The position numbers were made by a program, and so were the translations under genes. Below the pieces are notes generated by a model. It made no database searches. It had not been told where the DNA came from and was given only the letters and a program-made list of their open reading frames with translations. Below are positions 5,755 to 19,611 of a stretch of 39,893 bases of DNA, piece by piece. Each line of letters starts with the position of its first letter. Position 1 is the stretch's first letter. The stretch covers positions 1 through 39,893 of IMG/VR virus record IMGVR_UViG_3300044684_000234. One strand, 5' to 3'. The stretch comes from a virus.

Positions 5755-7290
5755 TCAGTTCACGCTGCGGCCGCGCTCCTCCAGCTGCGCGGTGACGCGC
5801 CAGAGGCCCGCGGCGTTGCCGTAGTGGATGTACTGCCACTGCGGTTCGTCCATGAAGCGGAAGGTGCGGTAGATGGGACCGCTGCGGCCTGGCAGCGACG
5901 CGTTGAACCAGCCCGACCACTCGCTGAGCGTCGTCTTGCCGAAGGTCTTGAGGGTCTGCAGCTGGTCGCGCGTCAGCACGGTCCACACCGAAAGCGTGGC
6001 GTGATAGTCCTGCGAGCGCGCGCGGCGCACCTCTGGGCCGCTGGGCAGCGTGCTCTTGGCGCGGCGCTCGGTGGGCTGGCCAGAGTCGAGCTGCAGCTGC
6101 GGCAGGTCGCTTGGGTACACCGGCAGCACGGCGCTCGGGCTGACGGCCGTGAAGCTCTCTACGCCCCAGGCGCCCCAGCCGATGCCGGCCTTCCACACGC
6201 GTGCGCGGCCGGAGGTTTCGGACTCGGCCCACTCGAAGCGGCCATCCTCATAGACGAGGAGGTTGCTCGTGGCCTCGATCTGGTCCGCCGGCGCCAGGTC
6301 GGGCGCGGTGGCCGATAGCCGCATGGTGGCGTCGGGGTACGGCTCCGTCACGTTTTTGTAGGTGTAGCCGGTGGCGGCCTCCATGCTCGTGATCGGCCTG
6401 CGGTTGCTGGCCACGCCGGCGTCGGTGACGACCTTGAACTTGATCGGCGTGCCGTGCGGGTTCTTCCCCAAGCGACACGTCACCGTCACTTGATCGGCTG
6501 CCCAACTCACCACGCTTTGCGTGACGCCCTCGGCATCGACGTAGCCGTTGCTGCCCTGCGTGGCGCCGAAGTAGACGCCGTAGATCGTGAGGGGCGCGCC
6601 GTCCTGCGGCGTGAGCGTGCTGAAGCTCTGCACGGTGGGCGTGACCGGAACGCCGATCAGCGCGAGCGCGCCCATGTAGTACCGGCGCGTGAACGCGTTC
6701 GTGAGCGACTGCCAGCCGGCAGGAAACCCCGCCTCCGAGAGGACGCCGGGGAACTGGTACAGCGACGCGACCTGGATGGTGCCCCCGCCGAAGGTGCCGG
6801 ACACGTCGGCCGACCAGCCGGCGTCGGGCGTGCCGAAGGTGACGGGTGCGAAGCATATGCAATCGCACACCAGCAGGTCGTTGGGCACGCTGTTTTCGCC
6901 GAGCACGAGCTGCGGCGATGCGTCGGCCGCGGTGTAGAACACCGGCACGCCATCGACCAGAGGCGTATCGAGGCCGCTGATCTCGCGCACGATGGCGCCC
7001 ACCCACATGGTGGCGCCCTGCTTGTTGAAGCTGATGGTGAGCGGGCCGGTGGCGGCCGCGGTGGTGGTGTAGTACGCCATGCCCACCGGGTCGGTGTAGC
7101 CGCCGCCGACCAGCGTCCAGGTGTTGCCTTGGTTGTCGGTGAACGGGGCGCTGTAGTAGGCCGAGTTCGAGGTCATCACCGTCATGACGACGGGGTTGCC
7201 GGCGGTGACGCCGGCGCAGACCATGTCCCAGTTGACGTTGTCGTAGGCGCTGCCGTCGATGTAGGTGTTGACGCGGGTGGGGTTGCTCAT
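5755..7290 (-). CDS. Composite tail protein: beta-sandwich, IPT/TIG-like and tail-tip domains
   Basis: Protein of 511 residues in three parts. Residues 1-215 form a predicted beta-sandwich (GNTWTLVGGGYTD, TGPLTISFNKQGATMWVGAIVREISG). Residues about 218-300 resemble an IPT/TIG Ig-like domain (PTVQSFSTLTPQDGAPLTIYGVYF). The last 110 residues (SGPEVRRARSQDYHATLSVW to LWRVTAQLEERGR) form a small tail-tip domain, also seen in shorter form in the protein at 9164-9559. It lies between the tailspike and the L-like gene. It probably forms part of the tail tip with surface-exposed adhesin modules. Function is inferred from architecture only. Confidence 0.6.
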   Translation of the reverse strand: MSNPTRVNTYIDGSAYDNVNWDMVCAGVTAGNPVVMTVMTSNSAYYSAPFTDNQGNTWTLVGGGYTDPVGMAYYTTTAAATGPLTISFNKQGATMWVGAIVREISGLDTPLVDGVPVFYTAADASPQLVLGENSVPNDLLVCDCICFAPVTFGTPDAGWSADVSGTFGGGTIQVASLYQFPGVLSEAGFPAGWQSLTNAFTRRYYMGALALIGVPVTPTVQSFSTLTPQDGAPLTIYGVYFGATQGSNGYVDAEGVTQSVVSWAADQVTVTCRLGKNPHGTPIKFKVVTDAGVASNRRPITSMEAATGYTYKNVTEPYPDATMRLSATAPDLAPADQIEATSNLLVYEDGRFEWAESETSGRARVWKAGIGWGAWGVESFTAVSPSAVLPVYPSDLPQLQLDSGQPTERRAKSTLPSGPEVRRARSQDYHATLSVWTVLTRDQLQTLKTFGKTTLSEWSGWFNASLPGRSGPIYRTFRFMDEPQWQYIHYGNAAGLWRVTAQLEERGRSVN

Positions 7291-7291
7291 G

Positions 7292-9160
7292 TCAGTCCAC
7301 CAGCTGCACGGCGCCGATGTCGTTGCGCGCGCCCGCCGGCACGCCGGTGCCCGCCTCGGGGAAGTCGATGCCGTAGTAGTCGAGATCCACCGCGAAGGGC
7401 TCCGCGGTTGTACAGGCGCCTATACCGGCGCCGCCGGCAAGGCAGTCCAGCAGGCGATTGGCGATGCTGTCGAAGTACGGGTCGCCGTAGATCCCGCTCG
7501 CGTCGATCGCGGGCACCGTGGTGTGCAGGCCGGCCTGGTCCCAATACAGGTTCTGCTCGACCGTGGCGGCGGTGGCCGTGGAGACAGTGCCGATGTCCAG
7601 AAACACCGTGCCGGCCGCAGAGGCGCCATCCGTCAGGGCAATGATGCTGTGCTTGAGCACCACGTCGCCCTTGTCCATCGCGTTGCCTTCCTGCGTGACG
7701 GCGGCCTTGAACGCGCTGGTGGCTGCGTCTGAGAGGATGGTCAGGTGCGTGAGGCGGTGGCGCGTGGTGTCGCGGCTGGCCTCGCCCCATCGCAGCGCGT
7801 TGCGGCTGCCGCTGGCGATGAGCACATTGCTCCAGGCGTCCAGCTCATCGATGCCTTGCGCGATGTTGAGGCAGTACTTGAGCGGTTTCTCCAGCCAGTT
7901 GTGGTGACACAGCATGCCGGTCATGTAGCCGCCGCCGCTGTCGTAATACTGCAGCGCGGAGCCGCCGGGGATGTCGTGAATCCAGTTGTAGGCGATCTCC
8001 ACCGAGTCGCTAGGCGCCACGTGGCCCTGGTCCATGTAGATGCCGTGGTTCTCCTTGTTGGCGGTGTCGGGCGTGAGCGTGTTGCGGTCGCAGTCGATGT
8101 CGTGGATGTGGTTGCCGAGGATCTTTCCGCGGCGGCTGGAGCCGGCGACGCCGCCGGCGCGCGCGTTGTTTGGCGTTGCGAGGATCGACAGCCACGGGCC
8201 CAGCTCGTTGCCGACCACCCACCAGTCGTCGGCATTGGTCTGCAGGTTGATCGGTGCGGCGTCCGCATTGGCCGAGGGGTCGCAGTCGATGCGCAGCTCC
8301 GACACCTCGAACCACTTGCCGTAGCCCTCGGCGCTTCGCTCGTCACTCGGACCTGTGATGCCACCGCCCCACCCGGCGGGCACATGGATGTGCACGTCGT
8401 GCGGCGCGTGCGCGAGGATGTCTCCCGGGTAGCTCGTGATGTGGATCGGCCCGGTGCCGGCCACGCCGGTGGGTGCGCTGCCCGTCTGCGTCTGAGGGCG
8501 CAGGAACTTGCCGTCGAAGCCAACGGTGTCGCTCCAGTCGCCACCCATCATCACGATGTCGTCACCGGCCTGGATGCCGGCGGTGGCGTCCCAAATGCCC
8601 CCGGTGAAGGGGTAGATCTGCGCGTATCGGAACGGGTGGGTGATGTCGTCGACCACGCCGCTGCCGTCGTCGCCGCTCAGTGACGCGAACCAGGTGCGCC
8701 CGGGGTTGACGATGACGGCCGCGGTGCGGATGTTGCTCATCACGCCGTTGACTTCGACGCCGACATCGAGCGGGTGACCCGCCACCATGCCCCCGCCGAG
8801 GCTGCCGACCTGCACGGTGATGCGGACCAGCTGATTGCGGTCATAGGTGCGGCTGCGCGACAGCTCGCGGTAGTTCGCAACCTCGTGCCACGCGTTGTCG
8901 CCCAGTGGGTCGCGCAGGAACACGCGCGCGCCCGCCGGCGTGCCAAGGTCAGATCGACGGCCCAGGCTGTAGCCGTAGATCCGCAGGAAGCTGCCGGCGT
9001 TGTACTGGCCGCCGGTGAGGCTGACGGCACGGCGGTTGAAAAACGCGATCCAAGGCCGCAGCTGGCGGCCGCTGGCCAGCGTGCCGTAGTAGTCCCAACT
9101 GCGTTTCTGGCCGTCCCACCCGGGCAGGTTCGGCCAATACTTGCTGTCGATGTTTGCCAT
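7292..9160 (-). CDS. Tailspike-like parallel beta-helix protein, probable polysaccharide depolymerase
   Basis: Protein of 622 residues. After about 150 N-terminal residues it contains runs typical of right-handed beta-helix proteins of the pectate-lyase type: KILGNHIHDIDCDRN, NHGIYMDQGH, VEIAYNWIHDIPGGSALQYY and MLCHHNWLEKPL, ending in a solenoid-capping DIGAVQLVD typical of such proteins. Asp- and His-rich turns around residues 350-430 could form a catalytic groove. It would degrade capsule or O-antigen at adsorption. No signal peptide is present. Its place inside the tail-tip cluster, between tape measure and J, is less usual than after J. One dispersed palindrome lies inside the gene. Confidence 0.7.
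   Translation of the reverse strand: MANIDSKYWPNLPGWDGQKRSWDYYGTLASGRQLRPWIAFFNRRAVSLTGGQYNAGSFLRIYGYSLGRRSDLGTPAGARVFLRDPLGDNAWHEVANYRELSRSRTYDRNQLVRITVQVGSLGGGMVAGHPLDVGVEVNGVMSNIRTAAVIVNPGRTWFASLSGDDGSGVVDDITHPFRYAQIYPFTGGIWDATAGIQAGDDIVMMGGDWSDTVGFDGKFLRPQTQTGSAPTGVAGTGPIHITSYPGDILAHAPHDVHIHVPAGWGGGITGPSDERSAEGYGKWFEVSELRIDCDPSANADAAPINLQTNADDWWVVGNELGPWLSILATPNNARAGGVAGSSRRGKILGNHIHDIDCDRNTLTPDTANKENHGIYMDQGHVAPSDSVEIAYNWIHDIPGGSALQYYDSGGGYMTGMLCHHNWLEKPLKYCLNIAQGIDELDAWSNVLIASGSRNALRWGEASRDTTRHRLTHLTILSDAATSAFKAAVTQEGNAMDKGDVVLKHSIIALTDGASAAGTVFLDIGTVSTATAATVEQNLYWDQAGLHTTVPAIDASGIYGDPYFDSIANRLLDCLAGGAGIGACTTAEPFAVDLDYYGIDFPEAGTGVPAGARNDIGAVQLVD
7410..7425. repeat. Dispersed palindrome, site 2
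   Basis: GTACAGGCGCCTATAC, 15 of 16 to the consensus, inside the tailspike coding sequence. Confidence 0.7.
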
Positions 9161-14979: not shown

Positions 14980-15322
14980 TGCTGTATTGCTCGCAGGTGA
15001 GGATGTGGCCGTCGCCCACGGCGGTGTCGACGATGGAGACGATCTCCAGCACCTTGCCGTCCCACAGCTTCACGCGCATGGTGCCGTCCAGGCCTGGCAC
15101 GGTGCGCAGCTTGATGCGGTAGGTGCGCGTGGCGATGCGCTCGTTGGCGGTGGCCTTCTCGGCGCCGAGCTGCTGCACGACGTTGGCCCAGCGCTCTGCG
15201 AAGACGTTGCTCCAGTCGGCCACCTCCTCGCCGTAGTCCGGGTCGCGGGTGATGGTCTTGCTGAGGATCTGGATGCGCTTGTCCAGCTCCTCGGCCGCGA
15301 TGAAGGGATAGACCGTGGTCAT
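14969..15322 (-). CDS. Head closure (head-tail joining) protein
   Basis: Protein of 117 residues, start MTTVYPFIAAEELDKRIQI. It contains DYGEEVADWSNVFAERWANV and TYRIKLRTVPGLDGTMRVKL, matching the phage head-tail joining family (gp16/HK97 gp7-like). Its ATG overlaps the stop of the connector gene (ATGA). The frame is open for another 340 bases upstream, but that part is an out-of-phase shadow of the connector gene, so the start at 15322 is preferred. Confidence 0.83.
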   Translation of the reverse strand: MTTVYPFIAAEELDKRIQILSKTITRDPDYGEEVADWSNVFAERWANVVQQLGAEKATANERIATRTYRIKLRTVPGLDGTMRVKLWDGKVLEIVSIVDTAVGDGHILTCEQYSSGG

Positions 15323-15861
15323 GCGAACACCCGGTGCGGGTCGAGCATGCGGTCGTACATGGGCGTCCAGTCCTCGCTCGGGCGGTAGAGCGTGCGCAGG
15401 CGCAGCAGCATCCAGGTCTTGATGGCCTGGGGCACCGAGGCGGCGTCGGCGTAGCCGGTGGTGTAGGTGATGGAGACGGCGTTGGCCACGTCCTCGGTGG
15501 CAGGCCATTCGACGCCGTAGGCCGGCAGCAGGAAGCCCGGCAAGTAGTCGGGATCGAGCGTGTAGGCGGTGGGGTCCAGCGTCTGCTGCACGCCGTCGGT
15601 GTCGATGTAGGTGACCGCGGTCACCGCGACGATCGGCGGGTTGGCGAGCTGGATGGCGTCGCACGGGAACTCATCGAGCAGCAGCTGCCAGGTCTGCGGC
15701 ATGAGCGAGCGGCGCAGCTCGTGCTCCACCTCCTCGCGCACGGCGGTGATGAAGCCGCTGATGCGGTCGTCTTCCAGCGTGTTCTCGACGCGCAGTTCGA
15801 GCTTGGCCTGGTCGAGCGTGATGGGCTCCGCAGTGGGAGCCACGGTGCGGCGAAATGTCAT
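15319..15861 (-). CDS. Head-tail connector, gp6-like adaptor
   Basis: Protein of 180 residues. EPITLDQAKLELRVENTLED, ISGFITAVREEVEHELRRSL and QTWQLLLDEFP are characteristic of gp6-like adaptor proteins that form a ring below the portal. The C-terminal IKTWMLLRLRTLYRPSEDW fits too. In most HK97-like phages this gene directly follows the capsid gene; here three extra virion genes separate them. Confidence 0.88.
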   Translation of the reverse strand: MTFRRTVAPTAEPITLDQAKLELRVENTLEDDRISGFITAVREEVEHELRRSLMPQTWQLLLDEFPCDAIQLANPPIVAVTAVTYIDTDGVQQTLDPTAYTLDPDYLPGFLLPAYGVEWPATEDVANAVSITYTTGYADAASVPQAIKTWMLLRLRTLYRPSEDWTPMYDRMLDPHRVFA

Positions 15862-17396
15862 CGGCGGGTTCCCCGGTTGTGGTTGGCCGGCCGGCCCGTG
15901 GTGCGCATCGCGGGGCGCGCGCCGGCCTGCAGGTTGCGGTGGGTGTGGCGGGCGCCACGCACGTCGGCATTCATGGCCGCGGCACCGCTGGCGCTCGACG
16001 TGGCCGCCGCAATGAGCTGGATCTGCGTGGTGAGCGAGCCGGTGGCCAGCGCCTCGGCCAGCGCGTGCGCGCTGAGCGTGGCGGTGAAGGACGCCGAGGC
16101 TCCAGCCTGCGACACCGCGGTGGCCTGCAGGCTGATGGTGGTGGTGAGGCCTGCAGAGCCCGAGGCCTGCGCCTGGCCGCTGGCCAGCAGGTTGATCACC
16201 GTGGTCAGCGTGCCGTCTGCCGCCGACTGCGCGACGGCGTCGGCGGACATGACGATGCCGGTGGTCAGCAGCGCCGACGAGATCGCCTGCGCGACGGCAT
16301 GCGCGCCCAGGTCGATCGATACGGTGATCGAGGCACTGGCGCCAGCCTGCGCCGCGGCAGCGGCGGCGAGCCGGATGGCTGTGCTCAGGTCGGCCGTTCC
16401 GGAGGCCTGCGCGTGCGCGTCAGCAGCGAGTTGCGAGCCGGCTGACAGGTCGGCTGTGGCGCTCGACTGGTCGACCGCGGCCGCCGCGAGCTGGATGGCC
16501 GTGAGCAGCGCGGCGCTGGCGCTGGACTGCGCCTGGCCGCTGGCCACCAGGCGGATGGCGCTGAGCAACCCCGCGCTTGCGGTTGCCGTGGCCACGGAGC
16601 CAGCGGCGAGCGGGATCTGCGTGGTGAGAGACGCGCTGCCGCTGGCCACCACGAGCGCTGCGGCGGCCAGTTGGATCTGCGTGCTGATCGAGGCACTCGC
16701 CGCCGCGGTGGCTGCCGCAGCAGCCGCGAGCGCCGCGCCACCGCCGCCGCCGGACGCAGCGGGGATGCGAACCATGACGGCGCCCACGCCGGTGCTGCCG
16801 AGACCGCTGGTGCGGGTAACGGTCATCGTGACGTTCCCTGTGGCGCCGGCGGCGACGTTGTCCTTGTAGAGGATGGCCGTTGTGCCCCAATCGCCGGGCG
16901 ACTCCAGCGCGCCCAGCGTCCAGCCGGCCGCACTCACGGTCCATTGCGATGTCTGCGTGGTCTGATCCAGAACGACAAGGATCGCCAGGTCATCGCTGGC
17001 CGAGGCCGTGACGCCGGGGACCGACACGGTTGCGCCCGAGGCGTTGGCCGAGGTATTCAGCAGTGGCGTGCCATGGCCCGGCGTTGCGGTGGTATCGCGG
17101 CCACTCCACGCGCCGAGGCATACCTGCACGTGGCCCGCGGACGATTGCCACGAGCTGGTGCCCGGCGGGCTGGCACCCACAAGCTTCCACCAGGTGCGAC
17201 CCGATTCGGAGTCAGGGCCCGAGAGGTCCAGGGTGGCAATCGCGGTGTAGCCGCTGGGGGCAGTGGACACGTCGCCGAAGCCGTCATCGCTGAGCACCGC
17301 CAGCTCGATGTCGTTCTGGGCGATGCCAGCGGGCTCGTTGACCGCGAACGATTCGTTCCCGGTGTGAGCCCCCTGGTTGCCGGCGCGGAAGGCCAT
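15858..17396 (-). CDS. Capsid-adjacent fibre-like protein with about ten 20-residue repeats
   Basis: Protein of 512 residues. Residues 1-213 form a predicted beta-sandwich (SGRTWWKLVGA, VTMTVTRTSGLGSTGVGAVM) similar in pattern to the N-terminus of the tail protein at 5755-7290. A GGGGG hinge at 216-220 leads to residues 231-470, where a 20-residue unit ([SG]x[AS]xLTTxIxLxAxAxAQA) repeats about ten times without insertions or deletions until residue 440. The last 35 residues are strongly basic. The composition suggests a regular solenoid or trimeric fibre. The position between capsid and connector suggests a head fibre or decoration protein. This is inference from sequence pattern. Confidence 0.65.
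   Translation of the reverse strand: MAFRAGNQGAHTGNESFAVNEPAGIAQNDIELAVLSDDGFGDVSTAPSGYTAIATLDLSGPDSESGRTWWKLVGASPPGTSSWQSSAGHVQVCLGAWSGRDTTATPGHGTPLLNTSANASGATVSVPGVTASASDDLAILVVLDQTTQTSQWTVSAAGWTLGALESPGDWGTTAILYKDNVAAGATGNVTMTVTRTSGLGSTGVGAVMVRIPAASGGGGGAALAAAAAATAAASASISTQIQLAAAALVVASGSASLTTQIPLAAGSVATATASAGLLSAIRLVASGQAQSSASAALLTAIQLAAAAVDQSSATADLSAGSQLAADAHAQASGTADLSTAIRLAAAAAAQAGASASITVSIDLGAHAVAQAISSALLTTGIVMSADAVAQSAADGTLTTVINLLASGQAQASGSAGLTTTISLQATAVSQAGASASFTATLSAHALAEALATGSLTTQIQLIAAATSSASGAAAMNADVRGARHTHRNLQAGARPAMRTTGRPANHNRGTRR
15987..16706 (-). repeat. Array of 60-bp coding repeats
   Basis: Encodes the 20-residue repeats of the protein at 15858-17396. The reading register is exact over ten units (an Ile, Leu or Ser lies at residues 241, 261, 281 and so on to 421). 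Units are diverged at DNA level, indicating age or selection rather than recent expansion. Confidence 0.75.
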
Positions 17397-17417: not shown

Positions 17418-17942
17418 TCAGTTGTCGATCTGGAAGGTGAGCGTGCCGGCCGAGAAGCTCGGTGCGGCGTCGCCGTTGTTGATGGTCTTGCTCACCGTCA
17501 GCGCCTGCCGCCAAAGCAGATTGCCGGCGGTCGACGCATCGAATGAGCAAACTTCCACCACCGAGCCCCAATTCGCCGTTGGCGCGGGCCACGTGAGCGT
17601 GATGTTGTTGGAAGTGGTGCCGCCGGTGCCGGTGGACGCGGTGGTGCTGCCGGCCGACTGCGTGCCCGCCCAGTTGGCGAGCGAGCTGGTGACGGCCACA
17701 CGCGCATAACTGCCACCGGACACTTCGGTGCCGCATGCCGCGTCGCTGCCGGTGGTGGTAGCCAGCGCGAGGTACTGCGTGGCAGGCATCGTGAAGGTCT
17801 GACCGCGGAAGTAAGCATCGATGAGCTTGTTTTCCGAGTAGTCCGACAGCGCGGTTGCGCTTGCCAAGCTGGGCAGCACCGCCGCGAGCAGCGACGCGGT
17901 GACCAGCAGCGCGGCAGAGAGAAACTTGTTGAATCGCTTCAT
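17418..17942 (-). CDS. Virion-type fibre domain protein with a Sec signal peptide
   Basis: Protein of 174 residues. It starts MKRFNKFLSAALLVTASLLA, followed by more hydrophobic residues and SLASATA, a textbook signal peptide with a probable cut after about residue 33. The rest (SDYSENKLIDAYFRGQTFTM, YLALATTTGSD, GGSYARVAVTSSLANWAGTQ, LTWPAPTANWGSVVEVCSF) matches a domain common in phage tail-fibre or capsid-adjacent proteins that normally have no signal peptide. A GAGGAG ribosome site precedes ATG 17942. A frame extension to 17978 is possible but lacks such a site. Export of a structural protein from inside the head gene block is odd. Confidence 0.75.
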   Translation of the reverse strand: MKRFNKFLSAALLVTASLLAAVLPSLASATALSDYSENKLIDAYFRGQTFTMPATQYLALATTTGSDAACGTEVSGGSYARVAVTSSLANWAGTQSAGSTTASTGTGGTTSNNITLTWPAPTANWGSVVEVCSFDASTAGNLLWRQALTVSKTINNGDAAPSFSAGTLTFQIDN

Positions 17943-17962
17943 TGCGGTAACTCCTCTGGTTC

Positions 17963-17978
17963 GTACAGACGCCTGCAC
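17963..17978. repeat. Dispersed palindrome, site 4 (perfect)
   Basis: GTACAGACGCCTGCAC, 16 of 16 to the consensus, in the intergenic gap just upstream of the signal-peptide protein gene. Confidence 0.75.
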
Positions 17979-18302
17979 TCAGGCCTCGGACGCGGCGGCC
18001 GCGGACGCGGACAGGCCTCCGTCACCGGTGGGCGCCGGCGCCGGAGTCGCGGCCTTGCCGTCATCGCCATCGGCCGGGGCGGCGGCCTTGGGCTTCTTGG
18101 GTGCCGGCGGCGCTTGCTCGGGCAGCGTCTGACGACGCGCCTCGGTGGCCTTGGCGTAGGCCACCGCATCGGGATGCGGGTCGACCTGGCCGGACGAAGC
18201 CAGATCCTTGATGACGCTCTCGGGCCCTTCGACCAGGTCTTCGGCCAGCAGGCCGAGGTGGGCGATGTCGCAGAGCACGCGGGCGAGCAGAGTCTTTGCC
18301 AT
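17979..18302 (-). CDS. Small head-associated protein following the capsid gene
   Basis: Protein of 107 residues. The N-terminal 55 residues (MAKTLLARVLCDIAHLGLLA to SSGQVDPHPDAVAYAKA) resemble the short proteins often found right after the capsid gene in HK97-like phages. The C-terminal half is Ala/Pro/Gly-rich, low complexity and probably disordered. Role unproven; a head decoration or linker function is plausible. It is separated from the capsid gene by a terminator hairpin. Confidence 0.6.
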   Translation of the reverse strand: MAKTLLARVLCDIAHLGLLAEDLVEGPESVIKDLASSGQVDPHPDAVAYAKATEARRQTLPEQAPPAPKKPKAAAPADGDDGKAATPAPAPTGDGGLSASAAAASEA

Positions 18303-18384: not shown

Positions 18385-19581
18385 TTAGGTGGCCGAGTTC
18401 TTGTAGAGCTTGACGGCGGCGGTGTCGAGCAGGTTTCCGCCGGCGCGGGCCCAGGCCAGGAAGCCGACCTGGCCCTTGCTCATGTAGGCCGAGTCATCGA
18501 ACCGGAACAGCACCACTTCCATGGCGTCGCGGATCAGGTACTTGGCGTGCTGGCCGAACGAGATGGGCGTGTTGTTGGCGCCCATGGCCGGCATGTCGTT
18601 GTTGATGTTGACCGGGTAGCCCAGCAGCAGGTCCGGCGTGTTCTGCGTGATGCCTTCGTCGTAGCTCGGCGTCCAGATCGGGCGGCCGTTCTGGTCCTTG
18701 AGCTTGCGCACCACACGGCGGGTCGTTTGCGCGAACTGCCAGGTGAACGAGCCTTCGGTGAGGTAGGCCTGGTCGACGGAATCGACCATATCGACCAGGT
18801 CGTCATAGGTGACGGTGCTGGTCTGGCCGGTGGCGCCGGTCTTGCCGACGCTGGCGGCCGTGGTGAGGCCGTAGGGCTCGCCGGTACCGCTGCCGTTCGT
18901 GAACTTGGTGTTCTGGATGCGGCCGATGCGGTCGCGCAGGCGCTTCTGCACCAGCGAGATCACGTCGATCGCCGAGTCCTGCAGCAGTTCGATCGGGATG
19001 GTGATGATCTTGCTGCCGAACTTCACGGTGTTCAGGGGCACCGTGCCGAACGAGGCGTCCGCCGAGCTGGCCTGCGTGTTCTGCGCGACGATCTCGCCGG
19101 TCTCGGCCGTGCCGTCCGTCGTCGGGTAGCTGAGGTCGTTGCCGCTGTCGGTGACGATGCGACCCGACACGCGCCGCATGCCGCCATAGTCCTTCATCGC
19201 GTCGACAAAGGTCTTGGCGACTTCCGTTTGCACGGTGTAGCCGCCCTGGCTGCCCGTCGTCGTGCTCATGGTGTTGCGCACGGCGATGGCCTCCTCGGGG
19301 GTCAAGTCCTTGAAGGACTTGCGCAGGAACAGCTCCAGCCCCCTGGTGCGCTCGTTCTTGGGCGCGTTCGGGTCGTTCTGCGGCGGGTTGTCGTTCGCGC
19401 GCTGATCGAGCATCTTCTGGTGGGCCGCGATCTGGGCGCTCACGCGCTCGGCTTCGTCGGTCAAGTTGTCGAACTCGGCCTGTTGCTCCTTGGTCCAGGT
19501 CTTGTCGCCCAAGTCGGCGATCAGCTTGTTGGCGGCGCGGGCAAGCTCGTTCTTGCGCTCGCGCAGGTTCTGGATGCTCAT
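18385..19581 (-). CDS. Major capsid protein, HK97 fold
   Basis: Protein of 398 residues. Residues 1-100 form the charged coiled-coil delta domain (NLRERKNELARAANKLIADL) that acts as internal scaffold and is normally cleaved by the upstream protease. The HK97-fold body begins near MSTTTGSQGGYTVQTEVAKT. PIELLQDSAIDVISLVQKRL and YLIRDAMEVVLFRFDDSAYM are typical of the family. The ATG at 19581 has AAGGAA upstream. Frame extension to 19605 lies in the terminator region and is rejected. Terminators lie on both sides, so this gene may be a separately dosed transcription unit. Confidence 0.95.
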   Translation of the reverse strand: MSIQNLRERKNELARAANKLIADLGDKTWTKEQQAEFDNLTDEAERVSAQIAAHQKMLDQRANDNPPQNDPNAPKNERTRGLELFLRKSFKDLTPEEAIAVRNTMSTTTGSQGGYTVQTEVAKTFVDAMKDYGGMRRVSGRIVTDSGNDLSYPTTDGTAETGEIVAQNTQASSADASFGTVPLNTVKFGSKIITIPIELLQDSAIDVISLVQKRLRDRIGRIQNTKFTNGSGTGEPYGLTTAASVGKTGATGQTSTVTYDDLVDMVDSVDQAYLTEGSFTWQFAQTTRRVVRKLKDQNGRPIWTPSYDEGITQNTPDLLLGYPVNINNDMPAMGANNTPISFGQHAKYLIRDAMEVVLFRFDDSAYMSKGQVGFLAWARAGGNLLDTAAVKLYKNSAT

Positions 19582-19611
19582 GGTGGGTTCCTTTCGATTG
19601 AGCAAAGAAAA

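Follow-up and report, generated by a model that had tools for sequence, protein, structure and literature searches.

In the structure paper on the Ralstonia podophage GP4, fiber I (gp80; PDB 8JOU, Pfam PF23140) is reportedly composed of five gp80 dimers linked by an elongated rope protein, and the fibre is said to be attached to the 15-fold fibre-tail adaptor at the tail vertex.

The GP4 protein has also been described as a dimeric fibril linking an adhesin to a collar (PMC13243795). The same 2026 study reported a module in phage LSH1, in which a GP4-like dimeric bead lies beside a low-confidence 'beta helix' that was left unexplained as a possible AlphaFold hallucination (PMC13243795). This 'extra structural module' (gp34-gp36), with its counterparts in Slicko01 and Slickus01, combines the Gp80-like bead with a large protein made up of an N-terminal domain and the 'beta helix'. 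A further beaded fibre, likened by its description to the module treated here, is the neck fibre of Anabaena phage A-1(L), which is present at the head-tail junction in five copies per virion and whose trimeric gp81 beads were modelled as joined head to tail without a rope (PMC10966104). A neck fibre of the A-1(L) type was rejected for the present module, given that a rope has no part in the published description of how its beads join.

The viral contig analyzed here (IMG/VR record IMGVR_UViG_3300044684_000234; its full 39,893 nucleotides are called the window) encodes a homologue of the GP4 bead followed by a repeat protein. Judged from the sequence, this repeat protein is probably the rope of a GP4 'fiber I'-type chain fibre, specified by a two-gene accessory module (Gp80 and rope) that lies in a siphophage head operon. 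As in the GP4-type Burkholderia phages, the partner gene lies directly downstream of the bead gene and has a 20-residue pitch; the Burkholderia partner is virion-associated. The window module differs from that of GP4 by its location in a siphophage head operon instead of a podophage tail cluster, by a rope that is much more regular than the GP4-type ropes, Ala-rich and extended by an N-terminal domain, and by a bead with a putative signal peptide and a cysteine pair.

Gene neighbourhood and insertion site

All window coordinates given below refer to the minus strand. On this strand the genes are arranged in the order terminase, portal and protease (all three assigned from matches), major capsid protein (18385..19605; Pfam, PHROGs), a 107-aa ORF (17979-18302), Gp80 (17418..17978), rope (15858..17396), head-tail connector (Phage_connect_1; 15319..15861), neck genes and tail. 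Gp80 was identified by Pfam (PF23140, 'Podophage GP4 fiber I protein gp80', E=5.5e-41), by PHROG 240 (head protein) and by phmmer, which matched it to chain a of PDB entry 8jou (E=8.8e-14). The rope gene, a real ORF of 512 aa with an ATG start, begins 21 bases past the gp80 stop, and its own stop overlaps the ATG of the connector gene (ATGA). Its location, with the capsid genes on one side and the connector gene on the other, bears out the term 'head-adjacent' used in an earlier, sequence-only reading of this DNA.

In Variovorax phage VarioGold, the nearest relative with a name, the capsid gene is followed by one small gene and the connector, without Gp80 and rope. The major capsid gene marks the upstream limit of the insertion in the window. 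A prophage that shares the window gene order (locus L139) carries the module at the same site. In another relative (locus L128) it is found between portal and head protease, and this different position indicates that the module has entered head operons at different places. In the prophage, bead and rope are separated by two ORFs of 320 and 277 aa that have no Pfam match (L139:6549-8814); the host MAG, which carries the label Verrucomicrobiaceae, may be a case of misbinning. The tail region of the window also encodes two large proteins, one of 511 aa with a weak TIG match and a C-terminus matching PHROG 384, virion protein (5755-7290), and one of 622 aa whose match to a beta-helix is weak (7292-9160).

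Architecture of the repeat protein

The rope is made up of several parts. The N-terminal domain (residues 1-215; 16752..17396) shows no periodicity by BLOSUM autocorrelation and no confident fold. Ten exact 20-residue units (residues 237-436; 16089..16688) are followed by an 18-residue unit in which two residues are missing (residues 437-454; 16035..16088) and by a last unit of 20 residues (residues 455-474; 15975..16034), so that there are about 12 units in all and a single deletion of 2 residues. The sequence ends in a basic C-terminal tail (residues 477-512; 15861..15968), the proposed virion anchor. The earlier reading had described ten 20-residue repeats in register, with no insertion or deletion, over positions 15987-16706, taken as residues 231-440. 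Ten units in register are indeed present at residues 237-436; those positions correspond to residues 231-470, however, and the uninterrupted register does not extend over the whole interval, owing to the 18-residue unit and the full unit that follows it.

Within residues 221-480, identity reaches 0.425 at lag 20 and 0.386 at lag 40, as compared to a maximum of 0.271 in 2000 composition-preserving shuffles (lags 2-44). BLOSUM autocorrelation of the repeat region at lag 20 has a z of 12.1, against a shuffle maximum of 4.1. At the DNA level, identity at lag 60 is 0.54, as opposed to 0.34-0.40 at off-register lags, so the units are diverged; this divergence and the basic tail had both been recognized correctly by the sequence-only reading. 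The repeat consensus combines L-[ST]-T-x-I-x-L with a subsequent 13-residue Ala/Ser/Gly/Thr spacer. In the combined profile, large hydrophobic residues occupy unit positions 1, 5 and 7 and small residues the other positions, which is the pattern expected of a short docking strand plus a spacer.

The rope protein had no match in Pfam, PHROGs, NCBIfam or the PDB sequences, and no profile of a known repeat or solenoid family from Pfam, PHROGs or NCBIfam matched its repeats or those of other ropes. A plain tblastn against phage records returned nothing convincing for the rope, its N-terminal domain or its repeats, and a peptide-pattern scan of viral contigs for the repeat gave no match. With phmmer, the N-terminal domain found only a weak match in locus L048 (E=0.014), which was rejected as a homologue, the L048 protein being terminase-like. 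The N-terminal domains of other ropes are unrelated to that of the window, one example being a Laminin_G_3 domain in locus L024. The window domain is probably a beta-sandwich and would probably serve as fibre tip or receptor-facing part. Arg-rich 'R-x-V' C-terminal tails recur in many rope relatives and are missing from some. Recurring R-x-V or R-x-L motifs were noticed in such Arg-rich C-termini (L097:4022-5311 and others), and they are repeated in L097 and L051.

A common pitch of 20 residues

When 46 non-redundant ropes were scanned over lags 15-25, the significant windows peaked at lag 20 in nearly all of them. The gene directly after gp80 in GP4-type Burkholderia phages shows the period of 20 (z 8.3 in BcepIL02), and five divergent ropes of this type combined give a z of 11.2, a value reached in none of 1000 shuffles. 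These ropes have no obvious sequence in common with that of the window, and the partner protein after gp80 is recorded as virion-associated in BcepIL02 and BcepMigl. In Mycobacterium phage Oline, the minor tail protein gp32, whose gene adjoins that of Gp80, has a period of 20 (z 7.9). Protein WGH49683 of Alishewanella phage Slicko01 keeps this period over roughly 600 residues (z up to 13.0) in a region rich in Asn, Asp, Ser and Phe, quite unlike the Ala-rich window rope; its gene lies two genes away from an ORF with weak similarity to Gp80 (E=8.5e-4, which misses the Pfam cut-off). Genes at 21-25 kb of Slicko01 were also checked and are not the module.

The 20-residue pitch is therefore a trait of the rope family that is kept without detectable sequence similarity. 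Since the identical pitch recurs in unrelated sequences, the earlier proposal that the length of the unit matters is supported. Unit number varies widely among ropes (overlapping windows make the counts upper estimates), and fibre length would vary with it. As exceptions, the rope of locus L103 shows a 23- as well as a 20-residue period, and a 605-aa protein near a Gp80 gene (L050:8350-10167) has a period of 18 (z 12.7) and may be a rope with another pitch. The module of LSH1, Slicko01 and Slickus01 is quite unlike the window rope in sequence and composition, and no period is reported for it (PMC13243795). With the period measured in the Slicko01 relative, the 20-residue rope register becomes a candidate explanation for the LSH1 'beta helix'.

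Co-occurrence of rope and Gp80

A DNA pattern built from the rope repeat alone retrieved 16 viral contigs, and the same kind of repeat is encoded in 15 of them. A search of the whole records with PF23140 found Gp80 in 13 of these 15; the two others are fragments of 5,985 and 4,497 bases, and for the phage of the 5,985-base fragment Gp80 is present in an overlapping contig. In the opposite direction, 80 loci were fetched from IMG/VR by Gp80 homology alone, 54 of which were left after removal of redundancy. An ORF with a significant period of 20 or 40 residues is present in 38 of the 54, and these two periods account for 39 of the 47 significantly periodic ORFs. The periodicity threshold (z 6) and the picking of ORFs were simple choices; the longest ORF was kept to reduce shadow frames, and some minus-strand periodic ORFs listed at Gp80 loci are probably shadow frames. 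Among Gp80 loci in bacterial genomes, about 27 of 37 have a 20/40-periodic ORF.

As a control, loci anchored on TerL or capsid were taken from relatives. No period-20 ORF was found in any of the 27 loci without Gp80, and the sole Gp80-bearing locus of this kind (L128) is also the sole one with such an ORF. Likewise, Gp80 is absent from all 16 whole records of relatives that lack the repeat gene. The rope thus co-occurs with Gp80 almost without exception, which argues for a rope strung with beads. In 16 of the 54 Gp80 loci, however, no rope was detected in the flanks, and this weighs against the bead-rope reading. Unusual Gp80 proteins were also noted: in MW202476.1 (L029:4986-5768) the domain is tandemly duplicated within one protein, a natural covalent dimer, and relatives of 210-219 aa (L128:3668-4306 and L171-L175) match the family profile in two pieces, as if by an insertion.

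Putative signal peptide and cysteine pair of Gp80

Translation of the window Gp80 likely starts at Met13 (17942). The protein then begins with a signal-peptide-like leader (MKRFNKFLSAALLVTASLLAAVLPSLASA; 17856..17942) that ends just ahead of the usual family start, (A)LSDYxENK. By sequence criteria, this stretch (MKRFNKF...SLASA before TALSDY) has the basic n-region, the hydrophobic core and the A-x-A cleavage site of a Sec-type signal peptide. Leaders of similar build, placed exactly before the usual start, occur in many Gp80 relatives, about a third of the family sampled. They are accompanied by a pair of cysteines, which in the window are Cys82 (17733..17735) and Cys144 (17547..17549): in a non-redundant set, the mature domain contains exactly two cysteines in 32 of 33 proteins with a leader, and the 60 leaderless proteins comprise 45 without cysteine, 13 with a single one and two with a pair. 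The pairs fall mainly in three column combinations (19, 8 and 4 proteins), all of them leader-bearing. The Gp80 tree is poorly resolved, with eleven leader changes on the best tree; well-supported branches require only two of them, and common descent therefore accounts for part of the correlation between leader and cysteines.

The cysteine pair in mature Gp80 is what would be expected for a periplasmic disulfide and, together with the leader, suggests that the beads are exported before meeting the rope. No signal peptide was seen on the ropes beside leader-bearing Gp80. If the leader is functional, bead and rope would thus meet only at lysis. It is conceivable, though tentative, that in one branch of these phages, to which the window belongs, Sec exports the beads and disulfides form in them in the periplasm; the rope would remain with the virion in the cytoplasm, and the fibre would be finished only at or after lysis, when the compartments mix. 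In two loci (L140:4793-6504 and L144:4820-6444), leader-bearing Gp80 lies shortly downstream of apparent lysis genes, which were judged by eye from amidase- or endopeptidase-like starts; the LSH1 module is likewise placed after lysis genes (PMC13243795).

Proposed assembly and alternative explanations

In the proposed chain fibre, each 20-residue unit would present a short sticky strand (L-T-T-x-I-x-L) followed by a spacer of small residues. The beads, probably Gp80 dimers, would dock on these strands one after another, so that bead spacing would equal the 20-residue pitch, and the number of units, about 12 here, would set bead number and fibre length at one bead or one dimer per unit. The basic C-terminal tail would probably anchor the rope on head or neck, with the N-terminal domain probably at the far end, touching the host. 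Docking of Gp80 at 20-residue spacing is the best reading of the strand and spacer profile in the light of the GP4 precedent. About 10-11 units were counted by eye in BcepIL02 gp56, compared with ten gp80 chains in 8jou; a sequence search of the PDB did not find the GP4 rope chain.

Alternatively, the repeats could fold on their own into the shaft of a two-sheet beta-solenoid, with two strands per 20-residue rung, and Gp80 would merely cap or anchor it. The hydrophobic positions do alternate in the unit, a beta-helix model of similar kind was obtained for LSH1 gp34 (PMC13243795), and AlphaFold2 places two strands in every unit of the window rope. The single-chain model (pTM 0.40, mean pLDDT 45, about 60 in the repeats) is, however, too weak as evidence for a fold, and the authors of the LSH1 study, whose model has similarly low confidence, suspect a hallucination (PMC13243795). 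The structure prediction of the monomer that the sequence-only reading had called for returned two strands per 20 residues and decided the fold neither way. Moreover, a self-standing shaft needs no Gp80, yet ropes hardly ever occur without it; the pitch stays at 20 despite a complete change of composition from Ala-rich to Asn/Asp/Phe-rich; and about 12 rungs would give a stub of only about 6 nm. Such a solenoid is unlikely. Of the earlier reading, the fibre survives in altered form: the head operon very probably encodes a fibre to which this protein belongs, but a free-standing solenoid or trimer is not supported, and the Gp80 partner had been overlooked. That the repeats are an ordinary low-complexity linker, periodic through recent tandem duplication, would fit the Ala/Ser-rich composition; this is highly improbable given the diverged DNA units and the same pitch in dozens of divergent proteins, including some of quite different composition.

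A further point against the bead-rope reading comes from the bead itself, as a signal peptide on the window Gp80 would keep bead and rope in different compartments before lysis. In phages with such a Gp80, the module might act in the cell envelope instead of forming a virion fibre, for example if the exported beads changed the surface of infected cells or lysogens. The leader and the cysteine pair are in line with this idea, as are the modules adjoining lysis genes in L140 and L144. It is nevertheless quite unlikely, since the partner rope lacks a signal peptide at these loci, the module sits within the head operon in the window, L139 and L128, and the ropes do not differ in type from those that accompany a Gp80 without leader.

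Significance

With the rope register, a region regarded in 2026 as a possible AlphaFold hallucination finds a candidate explanation (PMC13243795). Given the signal-peptide-like leader and the two cysteines of many beads, one may ask whether virion appendages can be assembled after lysis; if this is true, an appendage of a tailed phage would be finished outside the cytoplasm, on a shared 20-residue molecular ruler. More generally, the analysis provides a testable rule, according to which a Gp80 bead is partnered by a rope whose pitch is 20 residues. Such a rule would allow unannotated fibres to be found, and their bead number to be predicted from sequence, in podo-, sipho- and myophages.
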